In this document: one piece after another, positions 21,793 through 44,225 of the stretch
How positions within the stretch are numbered: the first letter of the stretch is position 1
Layout of the letters: the number at the start of each line of letters is the position of its first letter
From: a virus
Reading direction: 5' to 3' (one strand)
IMG/VR virus record: IMGVR_UViG_3300034812_000489
Coordinates: 1-54,411 of that record
Length of the DNA: 54,411 nt
Notes under the pieces: model-generated
Seen by the model: only the letters and a program-made list of their open reading frames with translations
What the model was told of the DNA's origin: nothing
The model's database searches: none
Made by a program: the position numbers and the translations under genes

Positions 21793-24700
21793 CTAGTTAT
21801 TTAGTCTATCTTCAAGAGCAGAAATTTTATCGGAGAGTTCCTTAACTGCTTCAATCAGAAGTGGGACAAGTTTTTCATACTTGACCGAAAGGAATTCTTC
21901 TTCCCTATCGGTGACGATAGGTTTAACTGCCTCTGGAAGAACTTTTTGTACTTCTTGTGCAGAAACACCAAGTTGTCTTCCAGGATTATCGCCCAAATCA
22001 AGAATTTTATTACCAACTTCATTCCATTCAAAAGTAAATCCAGTAAGTGAATTTACTTTATCAAGAGCACCAGTAATATTAATCTTGTTAGTCTTTAGTT
22101 TATCGTCAGAAGCAGCAGCAGCAAATGCAATAATATCTCCTCTAACTCTAAGTTCTGATCCTGCTGCGTTACTACCTGGAGTTACATAATAGCGATCATT
22201 CGCTCTTAAATCATAATTACCAGTGTCATGATTGCTAGCGAAAGTTAGATAATATGTGCCAGCATTGGTAGTGTCAGTTATCTTAATTTGAGAAGCAGTA
22301 CCAGTTAAGTCACCGGTTACATCTCCAGTTAAAGGACCGTAAAAATTTGATGCAGTTACTGAATTTATACCAGAAATATCAGTTGCATCATCACCTACAA
22401 TATTTCCATTAGCATTGATATCTAAAGAAACAGTTAATTTATCAAGTGTTGTATCACCATCAACATCAAGATTACCACCAACTGACAGATTTCCAGCAAT
22501 ACCCATACCGCCGTCTAATTGAACGGCACCAGTGTTTACATCACCAATTGTGTTATCTTGATTACTTTCAAATGTAGTAATACCAGAAACTGTTAGTTGA
22601 TCGTTAATATCAACTGTTCCTCCATTAGAATCAAGAACTAGCTTACCAGTTGCTGTGGTTACTGTGTTATTAGTTGAACCAATTATAATCTCATCAATAT
22701 GTGCTTCACTCCATGGTAAAGCACTAGTACCAAGATATGCACCTTCATCAGTATCAGGAACAATACCTGTCTGGAATGTTGCAGCTTCTTGAACATTTAG
22801 TGTTCCATCAATATCAGTATTTCCACAAACATATAAATCTGAACCAATACCAACACCACCCTTCACTCTCAGAGCAGCATTAGAATCATCACAGGATGTT
22901 GCATTATTAGAGCTTCTGAAGTCAACAGTGTCAGTGACTCTCAACTTATCATTAATAACCAGTTGAGCATTAAATCTAGTATCAGCATTAAAGGTTACAG
23001 GACCATCAAACTGCGATAAGATTTGCTGTGATGAACCACCTTCAACCAGAATTCTTTCCTTAACAATTACTTCATCAAAGACAACACTGAGTCTGTTTGG
23101 ATCTTCACCAGTAATTGTTGGAACCGGAACATCAAATACAGTCTGTTCACCAGACTGTGAAGAATACTTGGTGTTTCCAATATAGAAGTCACCGTCACTG
23201 TCCATACCAGTGTAGAGAACAGTACCACAAGATGTTTCTTGAGATTGTGATAAGAACTCTTCATCTTCAGTCAAGGTCTTGACTTGAACCTGTGGCAGAC
23301 CCGTTGAGTAGTTACCAGGTCCATAACCAAGATATTCAAACGTATGACCAGAAGCACGAAGAATAGATGGTCTATGGAATTCAATAGGAAGCAATTTAAT
23401 CTTCTTAACTACTGAATTTTCAGCATGTGATTCAATGAGCGTACCCATTGCACCACGAATGACTTGAATTTCATCAGTACCTGTTCCAGAAAGAGCATTG
23501 CTCCTAATTCTCATGATTTCATTATCTACTTGAATATAACATCCAAGTGGGAATCTCACAGGAACATCTTCTAATGGATATGGTGCTGGAGATGGACGAT
23601 AAATTTGGAATTGTTCTTCTGTTGTAATATCACTTGTAATTTGAATCTGCTCATTATCATAGAATACAAGGTTTCTAGCACCAAAGTTTTCACCAGATGC
23701 ATCTGCTGATGCATCGTTGGCAGACATGCCATGCTTTAGAATATAGAAGAAATCAGTTGTGGAAAGTTCCTTATCAGTTTTTGCCTCAAATACTTGGCGA
23801 TTAATTTTGGCAGAAACTGTAAAATCACCAAGATTATTATTTTGATTATCAAGGATTCTAAAGCTATTTCCTTTTAAGAGTCCATGCCTTACTTCAGCAC
23901 CACCTGCGGCGGTAGTAAATCTAGTAATACCTGTTGCCGCAGTGTAACTCACCTGAGTTACTTTCATTGCAATACCAAGATTCAGTACAATCTGACCCTT
24001 AGCAGATATTGGGTCACCAGCAGTCTTAGCAATAGAGACTGCTGTTTTGCTATTGATAGTAGAATTAATACGGAAATATCCACCAGCAGTGGTACCAATA
24101 CCAGTGACTTGAACGTAGTTATGCTCCGCTGTTGAAATACCAGCAATGTTGGTAGTTACGTTTGCGTTGGGTGAACCACCAATATGACTACTATCAAAAT
24201 ATAATGTTTCACCACTAGTATATCCAGAACCACCTTCTACAATAGAGGCAGCAGTGACTGCACCACTACTAACAGTAACATCAGCAGTTGCACCATCCCA
24301 AACAGCAGAGGCAGGTGCAGAATTGTCATTGAACAATCTTACATTTCTGTAAGTGCCATCAACGTGACCACTACCACCAGAAAGATTATTATATTTTACA
24401 AGTTTATTTAAATCATGTTGTCTATCAAATGTTAAAGTCTCTGCGGGTGTTGTTCCACTTATACTGCCAATTTTAAATCCGACACCAAAGGTGTCTAAGA
24501 ACATATCAGTATTCTCTCTAGTGAGACTTCTCTTCAGGTCATTAGTTACAACATCACCAAGAGGAAATCTCTTAGCAAAGGTTTTTGCTGCTGGTGGATT
24601 ATCCTCAAAGTTATCTCTATCTAACTGTGGATAGAGGTTTGTTACATTCTGACTGTACTTATCATTAACAAATTCTTGTGGCAATGATGCATCAGCATTC

Positions 24701-27642
24701 AACGCATACAGATAATAAATGCCATCATCTACATTTTTTACATAACTCTTGATTGTCTCTACACGATAGATGTAATAGTTTTTCTTAACATCTTTTCTTG
24801 TAAATCTGGGAAGTTGATTTGATGCAGTATCAGTATCATTTGTAATTGTTCCTGGATTATGAGAAGTTCCAAAAACATCAGTGCTATCAAATGAAAATAC
24901 TTTATCGTTAGTTACTGTCTCAACAGTAAATGTGCCATTATAACCAATATTCTTTGTACCAGGTGTATTAGTTGTACTGGTTACGTTCTCAACGAAAATC
25001 TTATCGTTGACTTTCAATCCATGTGGTTTCTCTGATCTGATTTCTATTGTAGATGTACCAGAGTCAAAAGTACAAGAACTAATGAATCTAACATTACGAT
25101 TGAAATCATAGTCATTAGTATCAATGCTAATAGCATTAAAGTCGGAGTCTTGTCTTACATTTGTAGAACTAGAGTCTTGAAGAACAAATCCTGGAATAGG
25201 ATCTCTTCCGTTAATAAGATTCTTTGGAACAACATAACGAATCTTGTAAAGTTTCTCATCCAGACTTCTCTCATCCTCTATTCTCTTAAAATAAGAAATT
25301 TCTGTATCAGGAACTTGTAGTGTTTTAATATATGCTTCTAAAGCACTGTCCGCATCAGTATGAATACACCATTGTCCCACATTAGGATCAAATTGGAGTG
25401 GATGACCAAGTTCACCTGCTTTCTTATCAGATACCCTACTTTCAACTCTAAGTTGTTCTCCACCATAATTTACAAGAGTAACTTCATCTAATGCTTCTGC
25501 ATTAGTTCTTGAAGATGCAAGTTGAATTTGTGTTGAGGCAAGATTTGTATTTTTAGCGTTTGTGACCGCAAAATAGACCACATTTTCTTCAAGACCCTCT
25601 GGTAAGTCACCAGTTTCACTAATGATTCTAACTGATTCACCATTCTGTAAATTGTGAGCACCAACAGTGTAAACTGTCCCCTCTGTATTATTTTGGAGAG
25701 TTACATTATCATAACGCTTGACTGAAGAATCAGTTCCATCAACTTGAGTATTAGATGCAGTAATAGGACCATTAGTCATCAAAACTCTGGCACTATTGCC
25801 ATCAGCATCTAGATAAATTCTTTCACCTTCTCTTGCACCAATTCTGTAACCTTGAGAAATTACTGGGGGTGGAATATCTTCGTTAGTATATCCTAAGAGA
25901 TATAGATGTTCATTTGCTGTACTCTTAATTTTATCAACATCAAACTGAACCCATTCAACATTAATTTCTCCACCAGTAATTGCTTTAGGTGCAACAATGG
26001 AAGTTACATAACCCTTATCATCCTTATCAAATGCATCTGGCTTGAATCCGTCTGCTGCCAATGAGAATTGACCAAAGTTGGAGTTAGAGTTGGTAATGGA
26101 TGCATCACCACCACTTGCTGCTTCGAAGTGTTTGTGGAATCCAATAGCAAAGACTGAAACAATCTGAACAACGGCATCGTTGGTCATCTTGATATGAGTT
26201 GTCTTCCAACCTTCTCTATAAACAGCATCAGAATCTAAGTGATAAACAAATTTATCGTTAGTTGCTGATGATTCTGAAGAAAGTTTAGAACCGGTTACTT
26301 TGGTGATACCGATACTATCAAAAGTCCGATTTGATGGATTATATTTAACGAATGCCCGATCATCTTTTTGGAGAGATACAGCAGTAAACTGTGCAACAAC
26401 CATTGAACGGAAACCATCTGCCTTGCTTCCATCGGCGTGCATACCCTGCATACCAAAAACAGAACGTAAGGAGATATTAAAGATATATGGTGATGCACCA
26501 GTTACGGTATCAGTTTCAATAGTGGCAGTTGCATTTGCACCTGGTGCAAGACCAGCACCAGGACCAGCAGGTAAGTTCGCTCTTACATTAGATAATGAAT
26601 ATGTGAATACTTTATCACTTATAATTTTCGTAACTTTCGTGGAAATATTATAATCACTTACATTGATTCCACGAATTTTGACGGGTGTTCCAGCACTGAA
26701 TCCATGCGGAATTGATGTAGTAACAGTAACCACACTACCAGGAGTTGCACCATCTCCAGAAATGATAGACGAAATAGTAATTGGGTCAGCAGCAAATGCG
26801 CCAACAATTTCCCATTCAGGTCTTTGTTTTGCAAACGAATTTGGTTGTGTTGGATATTTTTGATCAATATCTTTATTGCCAGCTGCTTTGTTATATGCAT
26901 TACTCAACTTAGCGTAATACATATCAAGATCTGTCAGATCATAACCAGTTGGAAGATTGACACCATCAGCATACTCAAAGCAAGTGAGTTTATGGTGAGA
27001 GAATGTTGGTTTTGAACGATTATTAGAAGAAAAATCAACAGGATCGGTATATACAGTTCCGCTCTCATCTCCATCAAAGATAGAGAATTGCCAGAAATAG
27101 CAGGCACCAGTAATTCTAAAAATAGCACTGGATTTTACAGTTTCATCCGTTGGGTTTGGAACATACTTTGGTCTAATCTTAGTCTTTCTTAAGTCAAGAC
27201 CAACAATAGAGGTACCACGAGGTATAATAATACCACCATTAATACTATTAAACTTGTGAAGAATATTATTTTCTTGTGTTAAATCAAAATTAGAATCTAG
27301 TGTTAGTGTTAATTCACTACCAGCAAAAGATTCTGCTCCACTGGGAGATACAGTTGTAGGGGTGCCACCAACACTTTTAATTGCATATCCAGGTCTATTA
27401 TCAATTAGGTGTTCCCCAGGATATAAAAGAATTGTGGTTTTTTCAGTTATATCATTATTATCGCCCCTTAAATATGAAAATCTTGCGGATTCAATTAGTG
27501 CCCTTTGAATAGTTTTAAAGGGTTTTGTTAAGGAGTTACCCGCATTCTCGATACCATCAGTAGCATCAAGGTCATTCGGATTTACATAAAGAATACGACC
27601 TTCTGTATTCTTGATAAAATTCTCTAACTTATTGAGTGGCAT
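21793..27642 (-). CDS. giant fibre/spike protein with beta-helix and C-terminal S74 autochaperone (1949 aa)
   Basis: Residues 1-600 include GRILYVNPNDLDATDGIENA and a right-handed beta-helix-like region (TIQRALIESARFSYLRG, LYPGEHLIDNR) with a pectate-lyase-type start, as in the 1100-aa protein at 45223. The middle is short beta-repeats (several TVSGITTFESNQ-like units). The last about 105 residues begin at SDDKLKTNKI and include FTFEWNEVG, QLGVSAQEVQKVLPEAV and YEKLVPLLIEAVKELSDK, the peptidase S74 intramolecular chaperone of endosialidase type. In this family the chaperone drives trimerisation and cuts itself off before the Ser (S of SDDKLK). A late promoter motif lies 33 bases upstream. Confidence 0.85.
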   Translation of the reverse strand: MPLNKLENFIKNTEGRILYVNPNDLDATDGIENAGNSLTKPFKTIQRALIESARFSYLRGDNNDITEKTTILLYPGEHLIDNRPGYAIKSVGGTPTTVSPSGAESFAGSELTLTLDSNFDLTQENNILHKFNSINGGIIIPRGTSIVGLDLRKTKIRPKYVPNPTDETVKSSAIFRITGACYFWQFSIFDGDESGTVYTDPVDFSSNNRSKPTFSHHKLTCFEYADGVNLPTGYDLTDLDMYYAKLSNAYNKAAGNKDIDQKYPTQPNSFAKQRPEWEIVGAFAADPITISSIISGDGATPGSVVTVTTSIPHGFSAGTPVKIRGINVSDYNISTKVTKIISDKVFTYSLSNVRANLPAGPGAGLAPGANATATIETDTVTGASPYIFNISLRSVFGMQGMHADGSKADGFRSMVVAQFTAVSLQKDDRAFVKYNPSNRTFDSIGITKVTGSKLSSESSATNDKFVYHLDSDAVYREGWKTTHIKMTNDAVVQIVSVFAIGFHKHFEAASGGDASITNSNSNFGQFSLAADGFKPDAFDKDDKGYVTSIVAPKAITGGEINVEWVQFDVDKIKSTANEHLYLLGYTNEDIPPPVISQGYRIGAREGERIYLDADGNSARVLMTNGPITASNTQVDGTDSSVKRYDNVTLQNNTEGTVYTVGAHNLQNGESVRIISETGDLPEGLEENVVYFAVTNAKNTNLASTQIQLASSRTNAEALDEVTLVNYGGEQLRVESRVSDKKAGELGHPLQFDPNVGQWCIHTDADSALEAYIKTLQVPDTEISYFKRIEDERSLDEKLYKIRYVVPKNLINGRDPIPGFVLQDSSSTNVRQDSDFNAISIDTNDYDFNRNVRFISSCTFDSGTSTIEIRSEKPHGLKVNDKIFVENVTSTTNTPGTKNIGYNGTFTVETVTNDKVFSFDSTDVFGTSHNPGTITNDTDTASNQLPRFTRKDVKKNYYIYRVETIKSYVKNVDDGIYYLYALNADASLPQEFVNDKYSQNVTNLYPQLDRDNFEDNPPAAKTFAKRFPLGDVVTNDLKRSLTRENTDMFLDTFGVGFKIGSISGTTPAETLTFDRQHDLNKLVKYNNLSGGSGHVDGTYRNVRLFNDNSAPASAVWDGATADVTVSSGAVTAASIVEGGSGYTSGETLYFDSSHIGGSPNANVTTNIAGISTAEHNYVQVTGIGTTAGGYFRINSTINSKTAVSIAKTAGDPISAKGQIVLNLGIAMKVTQVSYTAATGITRFTTAAGGAEVRHGLLKGNSFRILDNQNNNLGDFTVSAKINRQVFEAKTDKELSTTDFFYILKHGMSANDASADASGENFGARNLVFYDNEQIQITSDITTEEQFQIYRPSPAPYPLEDVPVRFPLGCYIQVDNEIMRIRSNALSGTGTDEIQVIRGAMGTLIESHAENSVVKKIKLLPIEFHRPSILRASGHTFEYLGYGPGNYSTGLPQVQVKTLTEDEEFLSQSQETSCGTVLYTGMDSDGDFYIGNTKYSSQSGEQTVFDVPVPTITGEDPNRLSVVFDEVIVKERILVEGGSSQQILSQFDGPVTFNADTRFNAQLVINDKLRVTDTVDFRSSNNATSCDDSNAALRVKGGVGIGSDLYVCGNTDIDGTLNVQEAATFQTGIVPDTDEGAYLGTSALPWSEAHIDEIIIGSTNNTVTTATGKLVLDSNGGTVDINDQLTVSGITTFESNQDNTIGDVNTGAVQLDGGMGIAGNLSVGGNLDVDGDTTLDKLTVSLDINANGNIVGDDATDISGINSVTASNFYGPLTGDVTGDLTGTASQIKITDTTNAGTYYLTFASNHDTGNYDLRANDRYYVTPGSNAAGSELRVRGDIIAFAAAASDDKLKTNKINITGALDKVNSLTGFTFEWNEVGNKILDLGDNPGRQLGVSAQEVQKVLPEAVKPIVTDREEEFLSVKYEKLVPLLIEAVKELSDKISALEDRLNN

Positions 27643-30995: not shown

Positions 30996-31518
30996 ATCTA
31001 TCACAATCACTTCCTACACAGTGCCAGAAATATGGTTTTTGTGCTCTATTTTTAAACTTTCTAATAGTAAATCCACAATCATCATAATCTGTTACAACTT
31101 TCTCCCCATCATAATATCTAAAAAATGAAACACCTGTTGAATATGTAACATAAAGTGTATCAGATGGTGTACTACAATTTGTATGCCATCCCATATATCC
31201 AGTCTTAGGATAATAAAAAAATCCACTTGTTCTTATCTTCCTATTTGGAAACAATGATTTTATTATCGGTTTTATTCTAATAGCATGTTTTCTTGGAAAA
31301 TGGACTAAATTTTTATTACCTGAAGTGTCAAGAATAAGATTCTTTGATTTAATCGAAATTAATTTTTCTTCGGAAATTTCATTCTCCCATTCAGGAAAAA
31401 ATTTAGATTCACCTTCTCCATCTCTTCTAACAAAATAATTTATTTCATCAAAGTTTATATTATCTTCTAATTGTTTTTGCAGAGATGCTGTTACTTTTAT
31501 TCTGGATGCTCTGGCCAT
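30931..31518 (-). CDS. 2OG-oxygenase-like protein with H-x-N motif (195 aa)
   Basis: Resembles marine-phage proteins with a GYMGWHTN motif: SGFFYYPKTGYMGWHTNCST gives H112-T-N114, GVSFFRYYDGEKV follows, and YFWHCVGSDCDRFSFGFRLF gives the distal H166 and R174/R180. The usual Asp ligand is replaced by Asn, as happens in some oxygenase-fold proteins that bind iron by two His only (aspartyl hydroxylase and halogenase types use Gly or Ala). Activity is therefore uncertain: hydroxylase, halogenase-like or degenerate. Located next to fibre genes and overlapping the plus-strand gene. Confidence 0.6.
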   Translation of the reverse strand: MARASRIKVTASLQKQLEDNINFDEINYFVRRDGEGESKFFPEWENEISEEKLISIKSKNLILDTSGNKNLVHFPRKHAIRIKPIIKSLFPNRKIRTSGFFYYPKTGYMGWHTNCSTPSDTLYVTYSTGVSFFRYYDGEKVVTDYDDCGFTIRKFKNRAQKPYFWHCVGSDCDRFSFGFRLFGGCEEGSLETPPS

Positions 31519-31862
31519 GTGACATTACGAGGTTCTGATATATTTGCAGGTAAATCGCGTAGTTCTTGTCTATATTTTTGATATGAACTCTTAATTCCTA
31601 CAGGAATGTCTCCTAATTGTGACCAATCAGTTTCTGCTAAAAGCCCATTTCTCATATTTCTTAGACCCTGCCAACGTTCAGCAGTTGTGTAAATATCTGT
31701 CTTTACAAAATTTCCTCCGACATAACTATCTCCTATTCCTATGTTAGTAGTATCTAAAAGAATTGCGATAGAACCATCTGGAGGAGACCAGTTGTTAGTA
31801 TCTCCATCCCATTCTACTACATTAGTAATTGTTTGATTTTCTATAATTGCATAATTTGCCAT
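31497..31862 (-). CDS. tail-fibre assembly chaperone-like protein (121 aa)
   Basis: N-terminal MANYAIIENQTITNVVEWDG (the I-x-N-x-V-x-NVIEWDG pattern of fibre-assembly proteins) and C-terminal RNGLLAETDWSQL ... QKYRQELRDLPANISEP match the phage tail assembly chaperone family (PF16778-like). A strong Shine-Dalgarno (AAAGGAGG) precedes the ATG. It follows the 1131-aa fibre gene, the usual order for a dedicated chaperone. Confidence 0.8.
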   Translation of the reverse strand: MANYAIIENQTITNVVEWDGDTNNWSPPDGSIAILLDTTNIGIGDSYVGGNFVKTDIYTTAERWQGLRNMRNGLLAETDWSQLGDIPVGIKSSYQKYRQELRDLPANISEPRNVTWPEHPE

Positions 31863-36698: not shown

Positions 36699-37064
36699 TC
36701 AAGAAGGTTCAGTAGGCCAAGTAACAGAAGTAAGATCTAAGTTATAACTAGCATCTAAGGTTGGAGTTGCTGTAGAAGGAAGGTCACGAAGTGCTTGCCT
36801 ATAAGTAGACCACTCTGAAGAAAGTGTAAGGTCTGATGATGCTCTCCAATCAGTCTTTGCAATTCTTCTATCTCTCTCTTCTCGCAGAAGTTTCATTGCT
36901 TCTGCATTATCTAATTCTGTGATTTTAGCAGTAATTGCTGCTTGAGTTGGTTTATCTTGTCCGTGACCATCAATCCACTCCAAACCAGAATACGAATCAC
37001 CACGAAGCACCCATTCTGCTCCTGGTGTAAGTACTTGTAATGCTGATGGAATATCGTACTTCAT
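36699..37064 (-). CDS. tail-fibre assembly chaperone-like protein (121 aa)
   Basis: C-terminal ALREERDRRIAKTDWRASSD-like pattern (KLLREERDRRIAKTDWRASS) and WSTYRQALRDLPSTATP are the hallmark of phage tail assembly chaperones (PF16778 type). The N-terminal half has LTPGAEWVLRGDSYSGLEW. A late promoter motif lies 22 bases upstream. Likely serves one of the neighbouring fibres. Confidence 0.8.
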   Translation of the reverse strand: MKYDIPSALQVLTPGAEWVLRGDSYSGLEWIDGHGQDKPTQAAITAKITELDNAEAMKLLREERDRRIAKTDWRASSDLTLSSEWSTYRQALRDLPSTATPTLDASYNLDLTSVTWPTEPS

Positions 37065-37607: not shown

Positions 37608-40600
37608 TTATACGACAGTGAATGTTGTTCCTGTTGGGACAGTCAAAGTAACATTATTTCCAATGGTGTATGGACCAAATATACCAACGTTTTTGTTTGC
37701 AGGTAATGTCTTGGAACTATTTAAGGTGGTATCATTTTCGAAGAATCCTTGACCAGCATCAGTACCCTCAGAACCACCACTAGAACTACTACCACCACCT
37801 TCGGTCTCATAATAAACGGTTACCTCTCCAGAATCAAAAGTTTGTGCTGTGTATCCCGAACCACCAGGTGTATAAGTTTGTATTCTAAGTTTATCAAGAG
37901 CATTCGTTAATTGTATACTACCAGCACCATGAGAAATTTGCCCAGTTGATTGGTTGCTATGACCTACATGAGAAATAGTCCACTTATTTCCAGTTATATT
38001 TACTAATTCTATATTGTAAGAGTAATCATCGGTATCATTAATATGAGAACCCAAACCATAAAAATAAGTAGTTCTTGATGCATCTGATGTCTGGTCTCGA
38101 AGTTCATAACTTGATTCATATCCAGACTGAATATATCCACTACTATCACCAACTTCCATATTAAGGAAGCCAATATTACTAGTTCCATTAAAATTGGCTC
38201 TATGTATAGATACTGTGATTTTCTTGGCAGTAGACGGAATATTGGTAAATGCTGCTGCAGTACTAGAAGTGGCATCTACTGTTCCAAGTTTTACTAAAGA
38301 ACTACCACCAGAACTACTAGAACCACCACCACTACCTTCGGTCTCATAATGAACAGTTACATATCCATTCTGGTTCCCCTGGGGTCCACCGGGGGAAAGA
38401 TATCGACCATTTTGAGTTTTTATTCTTAGTTTATCAAGTGCGTTTGATAGTGTTATACTACCACCACCATGGATTGATTTATCAGTACTATCTCCACCTT
38501 GATGTGAAATAGTCCAACTGTTTCCAGTTACATTTACTAATTCTATAGTAATGTTATAGTCATAAGAAATACTTGTATCATCAGCAAGTCCATAAGCAGT
38601 AGTTAGTTGATTTCCACCTAGATTACCAGCAACATCTACACTATCAAAAGCTGATTGATATCCACTGTTAGCATATCCACTACTATCACCAACCTCCATA
38701 ATAATATCATCACTAGTACCATCTAGAGTATTGTAACCAAACCTATACAGAGATACGGTGATTTTCTTGGCAGTAGATGGAATATTAGTAAATGCTGCTT
38801 CCGTTATTGAAGATGGTGTATCGATTGTTACTGTTCCATGTTTTACTAAAGAACCACCACCAGAACTACTAGAACCAGCACCACCAGTAGTATTAGTATC
38901 ATACCAAATATCACCATCACAAACATCTACTGTTGGTTCTGTGGATCCTATATAACGTTTTCCAAATGCATTACTCGTAGACCCAATTCCTATTGTAGCA
39001 ATTCCGGCAGAAATTGTCACTTCAATCGGATTACTACACCCATATTCTGTTCTTGGCGTATTATTATCCGCATATTGTTTTACATCAATATCTGTTAAAG
39101 TTCCACTACCACTAGCACCACTAGTTTGGTCTGCCCAAGTAACACCTGCACCAGCACCACCAGAAGTTAATACCTGACCAGGAGTTCCATAGTTAGCACC
39201 ACCAAGACCAATTTGTCCATTAGATCCAATACGGAATCTTTCTGTACCCTCAGTTGTAACCTTAAAGTGCCCATCAGTTCCAGTATCAACGACTTCTGCT
39301 TCTGTGTTTCCTTCTGTAATTTTATCGCTACTAATGCCGACATTGCCACTATCAGTTGCACTATGCTTGATAATATAGCAGAGAGCATAATATGGTGGGA
39401 GGTTATTATGTGCTTGTCCACCACCTTGAGATGATATTGAAGAAGAAGTTGATACCTCGTAAACTGAACCAGTATTCCAACTAAAATCTGGACTTGCACT
39501 GCTATCTCCTATCCAATAATAATCACCATTACTAAATGGATGATTATGAGATGGCATCTCATCAACTGTTAATGTATGAGTAGCAGCACCACCAGTAGAA
39601 CCAATACCAATACCAGGATATGTATTATCACCTCCATCAGTAGCACCAATAATAAATCTATCTCTTAAGTCAGGAACATTAGGTCCTACAATATCTTGAA
39701 GTGCTAATGATTGTACTGAAGTACCATCACAAAGTTGATATCCATTAGGAATACTTGCAACTGAACCAGCCCAAGCAACAATAGTTCCTACAGGATCTGA
39801 ACTAAAATTAGATCCACTACCAGCACTAGTATCATACCAAATATCACCATCACAAACATCTACAGTTGGTTCTGTGGTTCCTACATAACGCTTTCCGTAT
39901 GCATTACTTGTAGTTCCAATTCCAATCGTTGCAATTCCAGCAGTAATTGTTACATCAATTGGATTACTGCATCCATACTCTGTTCTTGGCGTATTATTAT
40001 CCGAATATAGTTTTACATCAATATCTGTTAATGTACCCGATCCACTATTTGCAGCATCAATGGTAAAACTATCACCGTTGTCGGTAAGAGTAATATTATT
40101 TCCTGCAGTAATAGTAACAATACCAGTATTATTATCACTACCTACCAGTTTTATTTTTATATCAGTACCGTCTGCTTCCGTTTCTAAATCATACGTTGTG
40201 TTTGTATCTCCACTACCAGATTCTAAAATAACAATTTCACCACCCATATTTGGATGAGAAGTACACTGATAATATAATGTAGGAGGAGCATCAAACTGAA
40301 CATTCCAAGTTAAAGTACCATTCTGTATATCATTATTAACAATTCCATCATTATATTGTGTTCCAGCAGATCCATTTGCAGTGCTCTGAATCCTAAAAGG
40401 ATGAGCATTCATATTATTGGTAAACTTGTACTGCTGACCTCTAACCAGATAGATTTTTGGATCATTCTCTGCACCAATTAAACCTGGACCAGTGAATGTA
40501 TAATGATTAATTCCATTAGCACCTAATATCCATTCTGATGTGTATGTCGATATACCTGCAGTATGTGCATATCCAGCAACCTCAGCATATTGAGAATTAC

Positions 40601-43600
40601 TTGATGCATTTAATGTATCATCGGTAATCGTTAATCCATTTCCTAAAGTTAAGTAAGTTAACTTCTCTTCACTATCATCGTAAAAAACAATTTTATCGGC
40701 ACCAGCATCAACAGCATCAATTTGAGCAGTATCAACTTTTAATACATCACTAGCACTAACGGCAATACCAATTCCAGCACCAGCAACAGCATCAATGGTA
40801 AGTTGTGTACCAGAGTTTCTTGTAACTGTAATATTAGAACCACCAGTGATTGTAATATCATCATTGGTAGTTCCATCACTTAATCTAATTGCAGGATCAT
40901 CATTATTACCAGCAGTTTGTTCAACAGTTAAATCGTAAGTTTTACCTGCGTCACTATCTACACTAATAGTAGTATTATCTATCGTTAATCCACTTCCTGC
41001 AGTCAAGTAAGTTAACTTGTTTTCACTATCATCATAGAAAACAATCTTATCGGCACCAGCATCAATACCACCAATATTACCATCAACTGCATTTAATATA
41101 TCACTAGCACTAGCAGCAATACCAACTCCAGCACCATTAACAGCAGAAATAGTAAATCCAGTCGAATCTGCAGGGTCAATAGTAATATTAGAACCAGCAG
41201 TAACTTTGATGGAAGAAATTCCTGTTCCACCGTCAGTCAGCACAATTTTAGCATTGTCACCATCATCTGCCGCTTCTATTGTATATCCAACCCCAGCAAA
41301 AGTGGATATATCTTTCCATTCTGGTGCTTCACTAGTATTGTTGTAAGTGAGAACCCTATTATCTGCATCAGGTTCTCCAAGGAATGTGGTTACTCCTGGA
41401 CCAGTTTGATATGGTATGCTTCCTGCTGCACCACCTGAAAGACTATTTGCTACTCCTGCAGTTAAGTCCGTTGCACTCACCCAAGATGGTGCTGAACCTT
41501 GATTATACTGAAGTAATTGACCAGTTACACTTCCATTGGCAATAAATTGTGTTGTATCAACATCACTTTGATAAGGAATTTGATACGCACCACCACCTTT
41601 TAAGTTAGTTGCTATACCTGCATTATCTGCATATTCTGCAACAGTTGCTATACCTGCAGTATGTGCGTATCCAGCAATAGTTGCTATACCTGCAGTATGT
41701 GCGTATCCAGCAATAGTTGCAAAACCGACACTAGCATCAGCAAAGTTAATATCAACATTAGATGCTGCTGTTAATCTTCCTTTACTGTCAACAGAAAATG
41801 TTCCAACTTGAGTTCCAGATCCATAATCACCTGCTGATACAGCAGTATCTGCCAGTGTTGCTGCTGCAGTTACATCTTCATGACCTTTGAAGTCAACATT
41901 CCATGTAATATCACCTGTTGCCTCAATATTTCTAGAATTAGTTAATGAATCGGCAGTTGCAACATTAGCATTGCCAAAATTAATATTAGTACTTGTAACT
42001 CCAGTAACTCTACCTTTATCATCTAATGTTAAGGATACTAATTTATTATCTCCACCATAATCTCCTGCACCAGGACCAACGTCCTTTAGGGTGAGTGCAA
42101 ATCCTACATTTTCAGTTCCATCAAAAGTTTTTCCTACTGCAACAATATCATCATTGGTACCTTCACCTAAAGTAAATGTTCTAGGTGTTTTTAATTTGTT
42201 AGCAATATCAACACTAGCATCAGCAAAGTTAATATCAACATTAGATGCTGCTGTTATTCTACCTTTAGTGTCAACAGTAACAATACCAACTTGAGTTGAA
42301 GAACCATAAGTTCCTTGTTCGACACCAGTAGTTGTTAATGTAAGTGCGAATCCTACATTTTGAGTTCCATCAAAAGTTTTTCCTACCGCAACAACATCAG
42401 TTCCAAAAGAAATTTCTCTAGGAGTTTCTAACTTCTTAGCAATATCAGCAGTTCCTTGGAAAGCACCATTAAACGTAGTTGCATAAACATTATTCCATCT
42501 TAGATTAGCAGATCCTAAATTCACACCATTATTAGTTTTAGGATTAATATCACTAATTACACGAGAACCAAAAGATACAGTATCAGAATTTACATCATTA
42601 CCAAGTGTTGTATTACCATTTACTGTAAGATTTCCAGAAACAGTAACATCATCAGGTAAACCAATTGTTAAAGTAGTTCCATTACCTACAGTTACAATTT
42701 CATTTGTGGTTCCTTCAATTTTAAACGTCTCACTATCAAGATCAACGGAACCATTTCCACTATCTCCCGCAAAGTCTAAATCTTGAGCGGTAATTTGATT
42801 ATCTACATATGCCTTAATTGATTGCTGAGTGGCAAGTGCGGTGGCACTATCAGATGACATGTCATCTTCATCAAGTATTGATGTGATGCTGACCGTTGGA
42901 TTTGTCCCTACTTTTAACGTATCAGTTGTTGTAATTCCTTGAATATCTAAAGAGGTATTAAAAGTACCAGTGTTTGCTGTTAAATTATCAAAGGTTAAAT
43001 CATCTTTGATGTATAAATCACCACCAACATAAAGGTCTCCTCCAGTTGTTGTGATACCAGCATTACCGGCAAGTGTTACTGCAACACCAACAGAGGGTCC
43101 AAGTACATTTAAGTTTCCTGTAGCGTCAACTTGTAATTCACTACTAAAAGTTGCTATACCAGATACACCTAAATTATCAAGTTCCGTATGACCATCTACA
43201 TCTAAATCTTTTTTAGCTTCAATTATATTATCAAAAGTTGCAATTCCTGTAACTTTGAGTTCATCTAAATCCGCTAAACCATCTACTGTTAATTTTTGAT
43301 CAACATCTAAATTCTTTTCAAATGTTGAATTTTGGGTTACGGTTAAAGTATCAATATTGACACCACCACTAAAGGTAGATACTCCAAGAACATCCAATAA
43401 TTGTGTCGGTATTGTGCTTCCGATACCAACACGATCATTATTAAAATCATAATAAAACTTTTCTGCTCCGTCTACAAGACCAGCAGTATTATGAAACTGA
43501 ATTTGACCTATAGTTCCACCGGCACCAGAAATTACTGATTGTGGTGTAACCCACAAAAGACCACCAGTTGCAGTTTTTACTATTAAATCTCCCGTACTAC

Positions 43601-44225
43601 CAGGTTGATTATTAGAATCATAAATTGTTCCTGTGATTCTAAAATTTCCATCAAGATGTAATCTCTGAGTTGGATCTATAGTTGAAATACCAACAAAACC
43701 GTTTAAGTCTGTTGTTACAAATGTTCCTCCCGTTCCTACAGTTATTCTATCACCAGCAGCAAATAATCCATCATTAAAAGTAAATCTAGTATCTGTGGCA
43801 AAATCATCACTACTTTTGAATAATACTGAATTATTATTTCCAGGAGGTGCAACTGTTATTGTTGCAAGAGTACCTACACTAACACCTTCAATATAAGGAT
43901 CTGCTACAGCAGTTATAGAATTACCAATAAAATCAAGTTGTGTAATACTACTAGCAGTACCAACAAGTTCACTTTCTTCAAATACACTAATTGATCCAGG
44001 AATAATACCTCCCTGAACAGGAATCCAATATCGATTTATTTGATTATCATCACCAATAATAGATATTATTTGATATTGTTCTCCAGCAGGAATATTAGGA
44101 GTACCTCCAGGAGGAGGATTACCTAAATTTGGTTCAGAATCACCTGGAGACAAATATCTATATCTATCGGTAGTTAATCCCGATTGGGGAGTTTTTTTAT
44201 AGCGACCTGAGATATATCTAGACAT
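37608..44225 (-). CDS. giant tail fibre with cupredoxin-like and tail-collar domains (2205 aa)
   Basis: A modular fibre. Shaft regions of VGIGTT-x-P and TVSGNLTVNGNTTL repeats; two nearly identical blocks of about 65 residues with GADKIVFYDDSEEKLTYL around 40590-41130; a 12-residue repeat AGYAHTAGIATI (41608-41715). Residues about 1235-1335 form a cupredoxin-like domain: YLVRGQQYKFTNNMNAHPFR, then YYQCTSHPNMGG, giving His, Cys, His and Met ligands. Residues about 1475-1625 are a phage tail-collar domain (GTIVAWAGSVASIPNGYQLC, VPDLRDRFIIGA, LPPYYALCYIIKHS). C-terminal knob blocks (SLVKLGTVDATSSTAAAFTN and a near copy) are duplicated. The largest protein here and the most likely primary adhesin. 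Follows the 329-aa structural gene by 6 bp. Confidence 0.85.
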   Translation of the reverse strand: MSRYISGRYKKTPQSGLTTDRYRYLSPGDSEPNLGNPPPGGTPNIPAGEQYQIISIIGDDNQINRYWIPVQGGIIPGSISVFEESELVGTASSITQLDFIGNSITAVADPYIEGVSVGTLATITVAPPGNNNSVLFKSSDDFATDTRFTFNDGLFAAGDRITVGTGGTFVTTDLNGFVGISTIDPTQRLHLDGNFRITGTIYDSNNQPGSTGDLIVKTATGGLLWVTPQSVISGAGGTIGQIQFHNTAGLVDGAEKFYYDFNNDRVGIGSTIPTQLLDVLGVSTFSGGVNIDTLTVTQNSTFEKNLDVDQKLTVDGLADLDELKVTGIATFDNIIEAKKDLDVDGHTELDNLGVSGIATFSSELQVDATGNLNVLGPSVGVAVTLAGNAGITTTGGDLYVGGDLYIKDDLTFDNLTANTGTFNTSLDIQGITTTDTLKVGTNPTVSITSILDEDDMSSDSATALATQQSIKAYVDNQITAQDLDFAGDSGNGSVDLDSETFKIEGTTNEIVTVGNGTTLTIGLPDDVTVSGNLTVNGNTTLGNDVNSDTVSFGSRVISDINPKTNNGVNLGSANLRWNNVYATTFNGAFQGTADIAKKLETPREISFGTDVVAVGKTFDGTQNVGFALTLTTTGVEQGTYGSSTQVGIVTVDTKGRITAASNVDINFADASVDIANKLKTPRTFTLGEGTNDDIVAVGKTFDGTENVGFALTLKDVGPGAGDYGGDNKLVSLTLDDKGRVTGVTSTNINFGNANVATADSLTNSRNIEATGDITWNVDFKGHEDVTAAATLADTAVSAGDYGSGTQVGTFSVDSKGRLTAASNVDINFADASVGFATIAGYAHTAGIATIAGYAHTAGIATVAEYADNAGIATNLKGGGAYQIPYQSDVDTTQFIANGSVTGQLLQYNQGSAPSWVSATDLTAGVANSLSGGAAGSIPYQTGPGVTTFLGEPDADNRVLTYNNTSEAPEWKDISTFAGVGYTIEAADDGDNAKIVLTDGGTGISSIKVTAGSNITIDPADSTGFTISAVNGAGVGIAASASDILNAVDGNIGGIDAGADKIVFYDDSENKLTYLTAGSGLTIDNTTISVDSDAGKTYDLTVEQTAGNNDDPAIRLSDGTTNDDITITGGSNITVTRNSGTQLTIDAVAGAGIGIAVSASDVLKVDTAQIDAVDAGADKIVFYDDSEEKLTYLTLGNGLTITDDTLNASSNSQYAEVAGYAHTAGISTYTSEWILGANGINHYTFTGPGLIGAENDPKIYLVRGQQYKFTNNMNAHPFRIQSTANGSAGTQYNDGIVNNDIQNGTLTWNVQFDAPPTLYYQCTSHPNMGGEIVILESGSGDTNTTYDLETEADGTDIKIKLVGSDNNTGIVTITAGNNITLTDNGDSFTIDAANSGSGTLTDIDVKLYSDNNTPRTEYGCSNPIDVTITAGIATIGIGTTSNAYGKRYVGTTEPTVDVCDGDIWYDTSAGSGSNFSSDPVGTIVAWAGSVASIPNGYQLCDGTSVQSLALQDIVGPNVPDLRDRFIIGATDGGDNTYPGIGIGSTGGAATHTLTVDEMPSHNHPFSNGDYYWIGDSSASPDFSWNTGSVYEVSTSSSISSQGGGQAHNNLPPYYALCYIIKHSATDSGNVGISSDKITEGNTEAEVVDTGTDGHFKVTTEGTERFRIGSNGQIGLGGANYGTPGQVLTSGGAGAGVTWADQTSGASGSGTLTDIDVKQYADNNTPRTEYGCSNPIEVTISAGIATIGIGSTSNAFGKRYIGSTEPTVDVCDGDIWYDTNTTGGAGSSSSGGGSLVKHGTVTIDTPSSITEAAFTNIPSTAKKITVSLYRFGYNTLDGTSDDIIMEVGDSSGYANSGYQSAFDSVDVAGNLGGNQLTTAYGLADDTSISYDYNITIELVNVTGNSWTISHQGGDSTDKSIHGGGSITLSNALDKLRIKTQNGRYLSPGGPQGNQNGYVTVHYETEGSGGGSSSSGGSSLVKLGTVDATSSTAAAFTNIPSTAKKITVSIHRANFNGTSNIGFLNMEVGDSSGYIQSGYESSYELRDQTSDASRTTYFYGLGSHINDTDDYSYNIELVNITGNKWTISHVGHSNQSTGQISHGAGSIQLTNALDKLRIQTYTPGGSGYTAQTFDSGEVTVYYETEGGGSSSSGGSEGTDAGQGFFENDTTLNSSKTLPANKNVGIFGPYTIGNNVTLTVPTGTTFTVV
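40220..40530 (-). other. cupredoxin-like domain coding segment inside the 2205-aa fibre
   Basis: Encodes about 100 residues in the order GINHYTFTGPG, IYLVRGQQYKFTNN, AHPFRIQS, LTWNVQFDAPPTLYYQCTSH, PNMGGEIVI. The ligand set His (AHPF), Cys-x2-His-x2-Met (CTSHPNM) equals the type 1 blue copper loop of amicyanin (C-T-P-H-P-F-M). Distances between the first His and the Cys are longer than in classic plastocyanin because of an inserted loop. Confidence 0.75.
41608..41715 (-). repeat. 36-bp tandem coding repeats in the 2205-aa gene
   Basis: Two perfect 36-bp units (41644-41679, 41680-41715) and a diverged third (41608-41643), encoding the 12-residue AGYAHTAGIATI. Tandem arrays like this change length by slippage. 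Confidence 0.8.

Follow-up and report, generated by a model that had tools for sequence, protein, structure and literature searches.

A cupredoxin-like domain with a putative type-1 copper site inside a cyanophage tail fibre

The fibre gene and its surroundings

The window, that is, the whole stretch of DNA analysed here, is a virus record of 54,411 bases whose few nucleotide matches to named phages are all to the Prochlorococcus phages P-SSM2 and P-SSM5. Its tail region lies on the minus strand and comprises, besides several genes for fibres and for fibre assembly, a homologue of the baseplate hub/lysozyme (PHROG 1922, E 1e-115). One open reading frame of this region, assigned through PHROG and weak Pfam matches, encodes a structural protein of 2205 aa in which the following parts are recognised:

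37608..44225, minus strand: tail fibre or baseplate-type structural gene (2205 aa)
40686..41285, minus strand: shaft repeats preceding the cupredoxin domain, approximately residues 981-1180 (repeat self-comparison)
40212..40553, minus strand: predicted cupredoxin domain, residues 1225-1338 (AlphaFold2, Foldseek and profile comparisons)
40035..40211, minus strand: shaft repeat after the cupredoxin domain, residues 1339-1397
39384..39788, minus strand: tail-collar/gp10 C-terminal-like region, residues 1480-1614 (Pfam PF07484 and PF21939, weak)

Residues 787-1335 of the fibre align with positions 86-410 of the 412 in the PHROG 677 profile (E 1.1e-26), including its C-terminal domain; this family carries the database annotation 'baseplate wedge tail fiber protein connector' (gp9-type). 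PHROG 8469 (tail fibre) also matches (E 1.2e-16), and the Pfam families Collar (E 1.2e-4) and Gp10_C (E 1.4e-4) both fall slightly under their curated cut-offs. The T4 gp9/10-like N-terminal domain (PF07880) was not found in the fibre by a Pfam search at E <= 1.

The cupredoxin domain is internal, with 1224 residues before it and 867 after. Residues 981-1062 resemble residues 1092-1180, and both resemble the repeat that follows the domain (identities of 44-50%, E as low as 1e-19), this last repeat being 44-47% identical to residues 1092-1153 and 981-1033; beyond it come the Collar/Gp10_C-like sequence and two C-terminal repeats of ~170 residues. The first-pass annotation of this DNA had envisaged a metal-carrying fibre tip. 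That picture is poorly supported, since the same shaft repeat stands on both sides of the domain and, in gp9, the domain is part of a connector. A scan of the window found no further cupredoxin copies.

Elsewhere in the window, positions 21793-27642 encode a 1949-aa tail fibre with a C-terminal intramolecular chaperone (Peptidase_S74, Pfam E 3.1e-13), and two tail-fibre-assembly-like genes (31497-31862 and 36699-37064) each lie beside a separate fibre gene. This pairing suggests several alternative fibres in one phage.

Predicted fold and putative ligand residues of the embedded domain

A cupredoxin pattern had been noted at 40220-40530, and it corresponds to a real domain of slightly wider extent, with hundreds of homologous phage records and a confident structural model. 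The AlphaFold2 model, built on an alignment of 73 sequences and replacing a single-sequence model (pLDDT 62), has eight strands and a mean pLDDT of 93.9. As the structure check proposed beforehand had anticipated, its fold is of the cupredoxin type, and the top PDB matches in Foldseek are type-1 copper proteins, namely rusticyanin (E 3.7e-5), CueO, copper nitrite reductase, amicyanin and plastocyanin; the best matches are without exception cupredoxins or domains of cupredoxin type (probability 0.99-1.00). The TM-scores are moderate (0.4-0.55), which indicates a distant member of the fold that is a copy of none of these PDB entries.

Taken by itself, the sequence of the window domain is suggestive. 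Pfam Copper-bind (PF00127) gives E 0.04 and 14.8 bits against a cut-off of 21.2, NCBIfam amicyanin (TIGR02657) gives E 1.5e-4 and 22.1 bits against a cut-off of 110.2, and a PDB sequence search with the domain alone returns nitrite reductases and amicyanin at E about 0.3-1.2. With relatives included the signal becomes clear: a 16-sequence profile reaches copper nitrite reductase at 5e-5, plastocyanin at 0.0016 and amicyanin at 0.0049, and the 73-sequence profile reaches them at 3.9e-6, 2.2e-5 (2plt) and 5.3e-4, respectively. The second of the P-SSM2 fibre copies clears the Copper-bind cut-off on its own (23.3 versus 21.2 bits), and hhalign of the domain profile against six plastocyanins from phage genomes gives E 8.6e-7. 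In that comparison with phage PetE both His ligands and the Cys are in register and the Met is one loop insertion apart; the HMMER alignment to plastocyanin shifts the first His by two residues. PF25489 (At5g54830-like) was considered as the family to which the domain belongs: weak matches to it occur in 22 of the 73 sequences, and a PF25489 search of five MAG genomes and 14 controls gave no matches. Model and profiles together argue that residues 1225-1338 are a genuine member of the cupredoxin fold, and we class the domain as a cupredoxin fold with putative type-1 ligands that scores below the amicyanin and plastocyanin family cut-offs. It is not an exported soluble electron carrier like those proteins, being an internal domain of the fibre.

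The motifs AHPFRI (residues 1274-1279, window 40389-40406) and QCTSHPNMGG (residues 1320-1329, window 40239-40268) lie in the translated fibre where they had been reported, and together they supply the four putative ligands, which correspond to His51, Cys97, His100 and Met103 in domain numbering:

40401..40403, minus strand: His1275 (AHPFRI), putative first copper ligand; invariant in 73/73 sequences, codons CAT 53 and CAC 19
40263..40265, minus strand: Cys1321, putative copper thiolate ligand; invariant in 73/73, TGT 61 and TGC 11
40254..40256, minus strand: His1324, putative second His ligand; invariant in 73/73, CAT 48 and CAC 24
40245..40247, minus strand: Met1327, putative axial ligand; invariant in 73/73 and outside the search seeds

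Alignment and model bear out the claim that these residues occur in type-1 order: in the AlphaFold2 model H51 comes before strand 53-56, C97, the sole Cys of the domain, ends strand 92-97, and H100 and M103 lie in the loop preceding strand 104-110. His1275 aligns both with the His of phage plastocyanin and with HPFHI of CueO.

A survey of cyanophage fibres for C-x2-H-x2-M, also proposed in advance, found the motif conserved throughout the 73 sequences. Across this set, which extends down to 25% identity, the ligands make up four of only eight wholly invariant positions, with positions 99, 101 and 102 between them in the loop being variable. At the two His positions and at the Cys, each of the two synonymous codons occurs, and the invariance is therefore not due to recent common descent. 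The search seeds overlapped the ligand motifs and may have biased this count; the ligands are nevertheless kept in the 12 rows without the QCT seed and in the 25 without the HPF seed. A profile with the ligands masked recovered 107 distinct domains bearing all four (about 108 if one Cys misaligned by the program is counted), three tandem copies in which nearly all ligands are lost, and no clear intermediates, the other rows being fragments. Such all-or-none retention is what a metal site would predict. The foldable copies without ligands also imply that the beta-sandwich itself has no need of these residues. Two of the three ligand-less copies are in L071 (4718-7216), which has a ligand-bearing copy in the same frame, and one is in L026 (3218-6211), which has an intact copy in the same protein.

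A divergent second subfamily, found through S-TIM54 in a search seeded mostly on parts other than the ligand motifs, has C-x2-H-x2-M in 56 of 60 distinct hits; of the other four, three have C-x2-H-x3-M and one is a fragment. On marine virus contigs (L112:2938-3276 and L125-L204) the second, divergent viral subfamily reads 'HPLRFSTT...THGGG...LYYYCVNHxxMGG', with the same His / Cys-x2-His-x2-Met pattern.

Because phage fibres are long and repetitive, a chance motif in a fibre repeat was considered. The full pattern H-x(35-60)-C-x2-H-x2-M arose in 0 of 20,000 shuffles of the fibre (C-x2-H-x2-M alone arose in 8), and this, together with the hundreds of homologues and the confident model, refutes the idea and leaves it a negligible probability.

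Occurrence in cyanophage tails

The domain was found in 342 phage records at E <= 1e-5, a count that includes many near-identical isolates. Nearly all are cyanophages, named for Synechococcus (267), 'Cyanophage' (51) or Prochlorococcus (19), with a few others; as a rough yardstick, the T4-like baseplate gene gp8 is present in about 459 records under the same three names. In many T4-like cyanophages, and in most of those that carry it, the domain forms the C-terminus of gp9, the connector between baseplate and fibre. It corresponds to the C-terminal end of PHROG 677 (profile positions 302-410 of 412, E 2.3e-36) and forms the final ~100 residues of the gp9-type connector in S-SSM5, S-ShM2, S-RIM12 and P-RSM6; the S-SSM5 protein joins a T4_gp9_10_N domain (PF07880) at its N-terminus to the cupredoxin at its C-terminus. 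The window fibre resembles the end of this family, but differs from the 408-aa connector in that the domain is embedded in 2205 residues with Collar/gp10-like parts. The podoviruses P-SCSP2 and P-GSP1 carry the domain close to the N-terminus of proteins from the tail region, and in P-SSM2 two copies occur within one protein. A fold search of viral models with the domain returned chiefly cyanophage fibre and gp9 proteins. The word 'cupredoxin' is absent from the annotations of the domain-bearing proteins examined, which are labelled 'baseplate wedge tail fiber connector', 'tail fiber' or 'hypothetical'.

A cellular origin was considered for five hits in GTDB MAGs and rejected, as clear phage baseplate-type genes are present on four of the contigs (L096-L099) and a tail-fibre-like protein is encoded on the fifth (L100); they look like phage contigs binned with bacteria.

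Copper, structure and alternative readings

Amicyanin (TIGR02657) and plastocyanin (PF00127) share with the fibre domain the Greek-key beta-sandwich, the His...Cys-x2-His-x2-Met order with amicyanin spacing, a Gly two residues past the Met, and weak but consistent profile matches. The loop CTSHPNM was said to differ from the amicyanin loop CTPHPFM at two non-ligand positions only, which is correct. Unlike these proteins, however, the fibre domain has no signal peptide and sits inside a multi-domain virion protein made in the cytosol, has H-P-F at the first ligand where they have P-H-N, and carries extra N-terminal strands (WILGANG...YTFTGPG). CueO, with its type-1 domain of a multicopper oxidase, and rusticyanin are the best fold matches, and the HPF-x-I motif of CueO aligns on HPFRI; the fibre domain differs from them in being single, without trinuclear centre ligands and with a shorter Cys-His-Met loop.

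We consider it probable (roughly 0.6) that the domain is a cupredoxin fold with an intact type-1 site, carried as a mobile module in the tails of marine cyanophages, where it would serve as a rigid adaptor or joint with room for one copper. To judge from the pattern of its ligands, copper could be held; the position in a connector or fibre shaft favours the adaptor or joint role, which on that ground is the most likely one. The domain as a whole is most likely a structural or adaptor module with the capacity for a single copper ion in each chain. In the assembled fibre or baseplate the compact beta-sandwich would provide the rigid element, and a single copper ion in each chain would lock the His loop and the Cys-His-Met loop together. 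A fibre, like other tail proteins, folds in the cytosol; free copper is very scarce there, and we know of no route by which the fibre could obtain it, which counts against this reading. Since no signal peptide precedes the domain, the fibre would probably be made in its apo form and acquire copper at or after cell lysis, or in sea water.

The scarcity of copper during folding would also suit a cupredoxin-fold scaffold that holds another metal (zinc or iron) or none, its conserved residues being kept for folding or contact. Copper-free cupredoxin folds exist, factor V is present among the Foldseek matches of the domain model, and ligand-less copies have been retained in L071 and L026. Such a scaffold would not readily explain why invariance falls on precisely the four type-1 ligands and not on their loop neighbours 99, 101 and 102, which vary, nor why copies lose the ligands together and not singly, and we regard it as possible but unlikely.

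An active use of the site would go further, through copper or redox sensing, binding of a host cupredoxin or metal-uptake receptor, or a change of fibre shape at a copper- or redox-active surface. The site is intact and strictly conserved, the hosts depend on plastocyanin, and a free PF00127 plastocyanin-type gene, in one case annotated PetE, is present in 7 of the 9 domain-bearing phage records checked, so that the same phages encode a blue-copper-type protein; cyanophage petE is an auxiliary plastocyanin gene whose product is a free protein (PMC3037559). This product has a signal-peptide-like N-terminus, whereas the fibre domain belongs to a structural protein and is no more than a distant relative. 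Iron-binding HxH motifs have been described in the tail fibres of T4 (gp37) and alterophage R22Y, and fibre iron has been proposed to exploit receptors (PMC11705849). In both cases a marine or T4-like phage has metal-ligand residues in one of its tail fibres, but the HxH motifs pair histidines for octahedral iron, whereas the cyanophage domain is a separate fold with a putative Cys-His2-Met site. Against active use, the domain occupies no receptor-binding tip, being internal in the window fibre and the last domain of the gp9 connector; the analysis yielded no pointer to the host cupredoxin partner or metal-uptake receptor that had been suggested earlier, and the literature searched contained no link between copper and phage fibres. 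We therefore judge active use decidedly improbable. The broader proposal that the virions of a large share of T4-like marine cyanophages carry type-1 copper in connectors or fibres and use it, for example as a copper- or redox-dependent lock on fibre deployment, appears rather unlikely.

We found no report of a cupredoxin or copper site in phage tails in the literature searched, which covered few subscription papers, and a copper-type domain in this location is provisionally novel. If copper is bound by the adaptor module proposed here, many T4-like cyanophages of the ocean would be metalloparticles that contain copper in the part linking baseplate and fibre; to judge by the literature searched, theirs would be the first such site in any phage tail, and it would widen the iron-in-fibre idea to a second metal. 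Even without copper, a fold is now named for a widespread and unexplained domain of cyanophage gp9. Related domains are also present in phage proteins that carry a subtilisin-like or S8 peptidase annotation (S-H9-1, S-BM3 and ACG-2014e/h), and the predicted structures of 'beta-sandwich proteins' named for Pithovirus and Marseillevirus match the fold of the domain.
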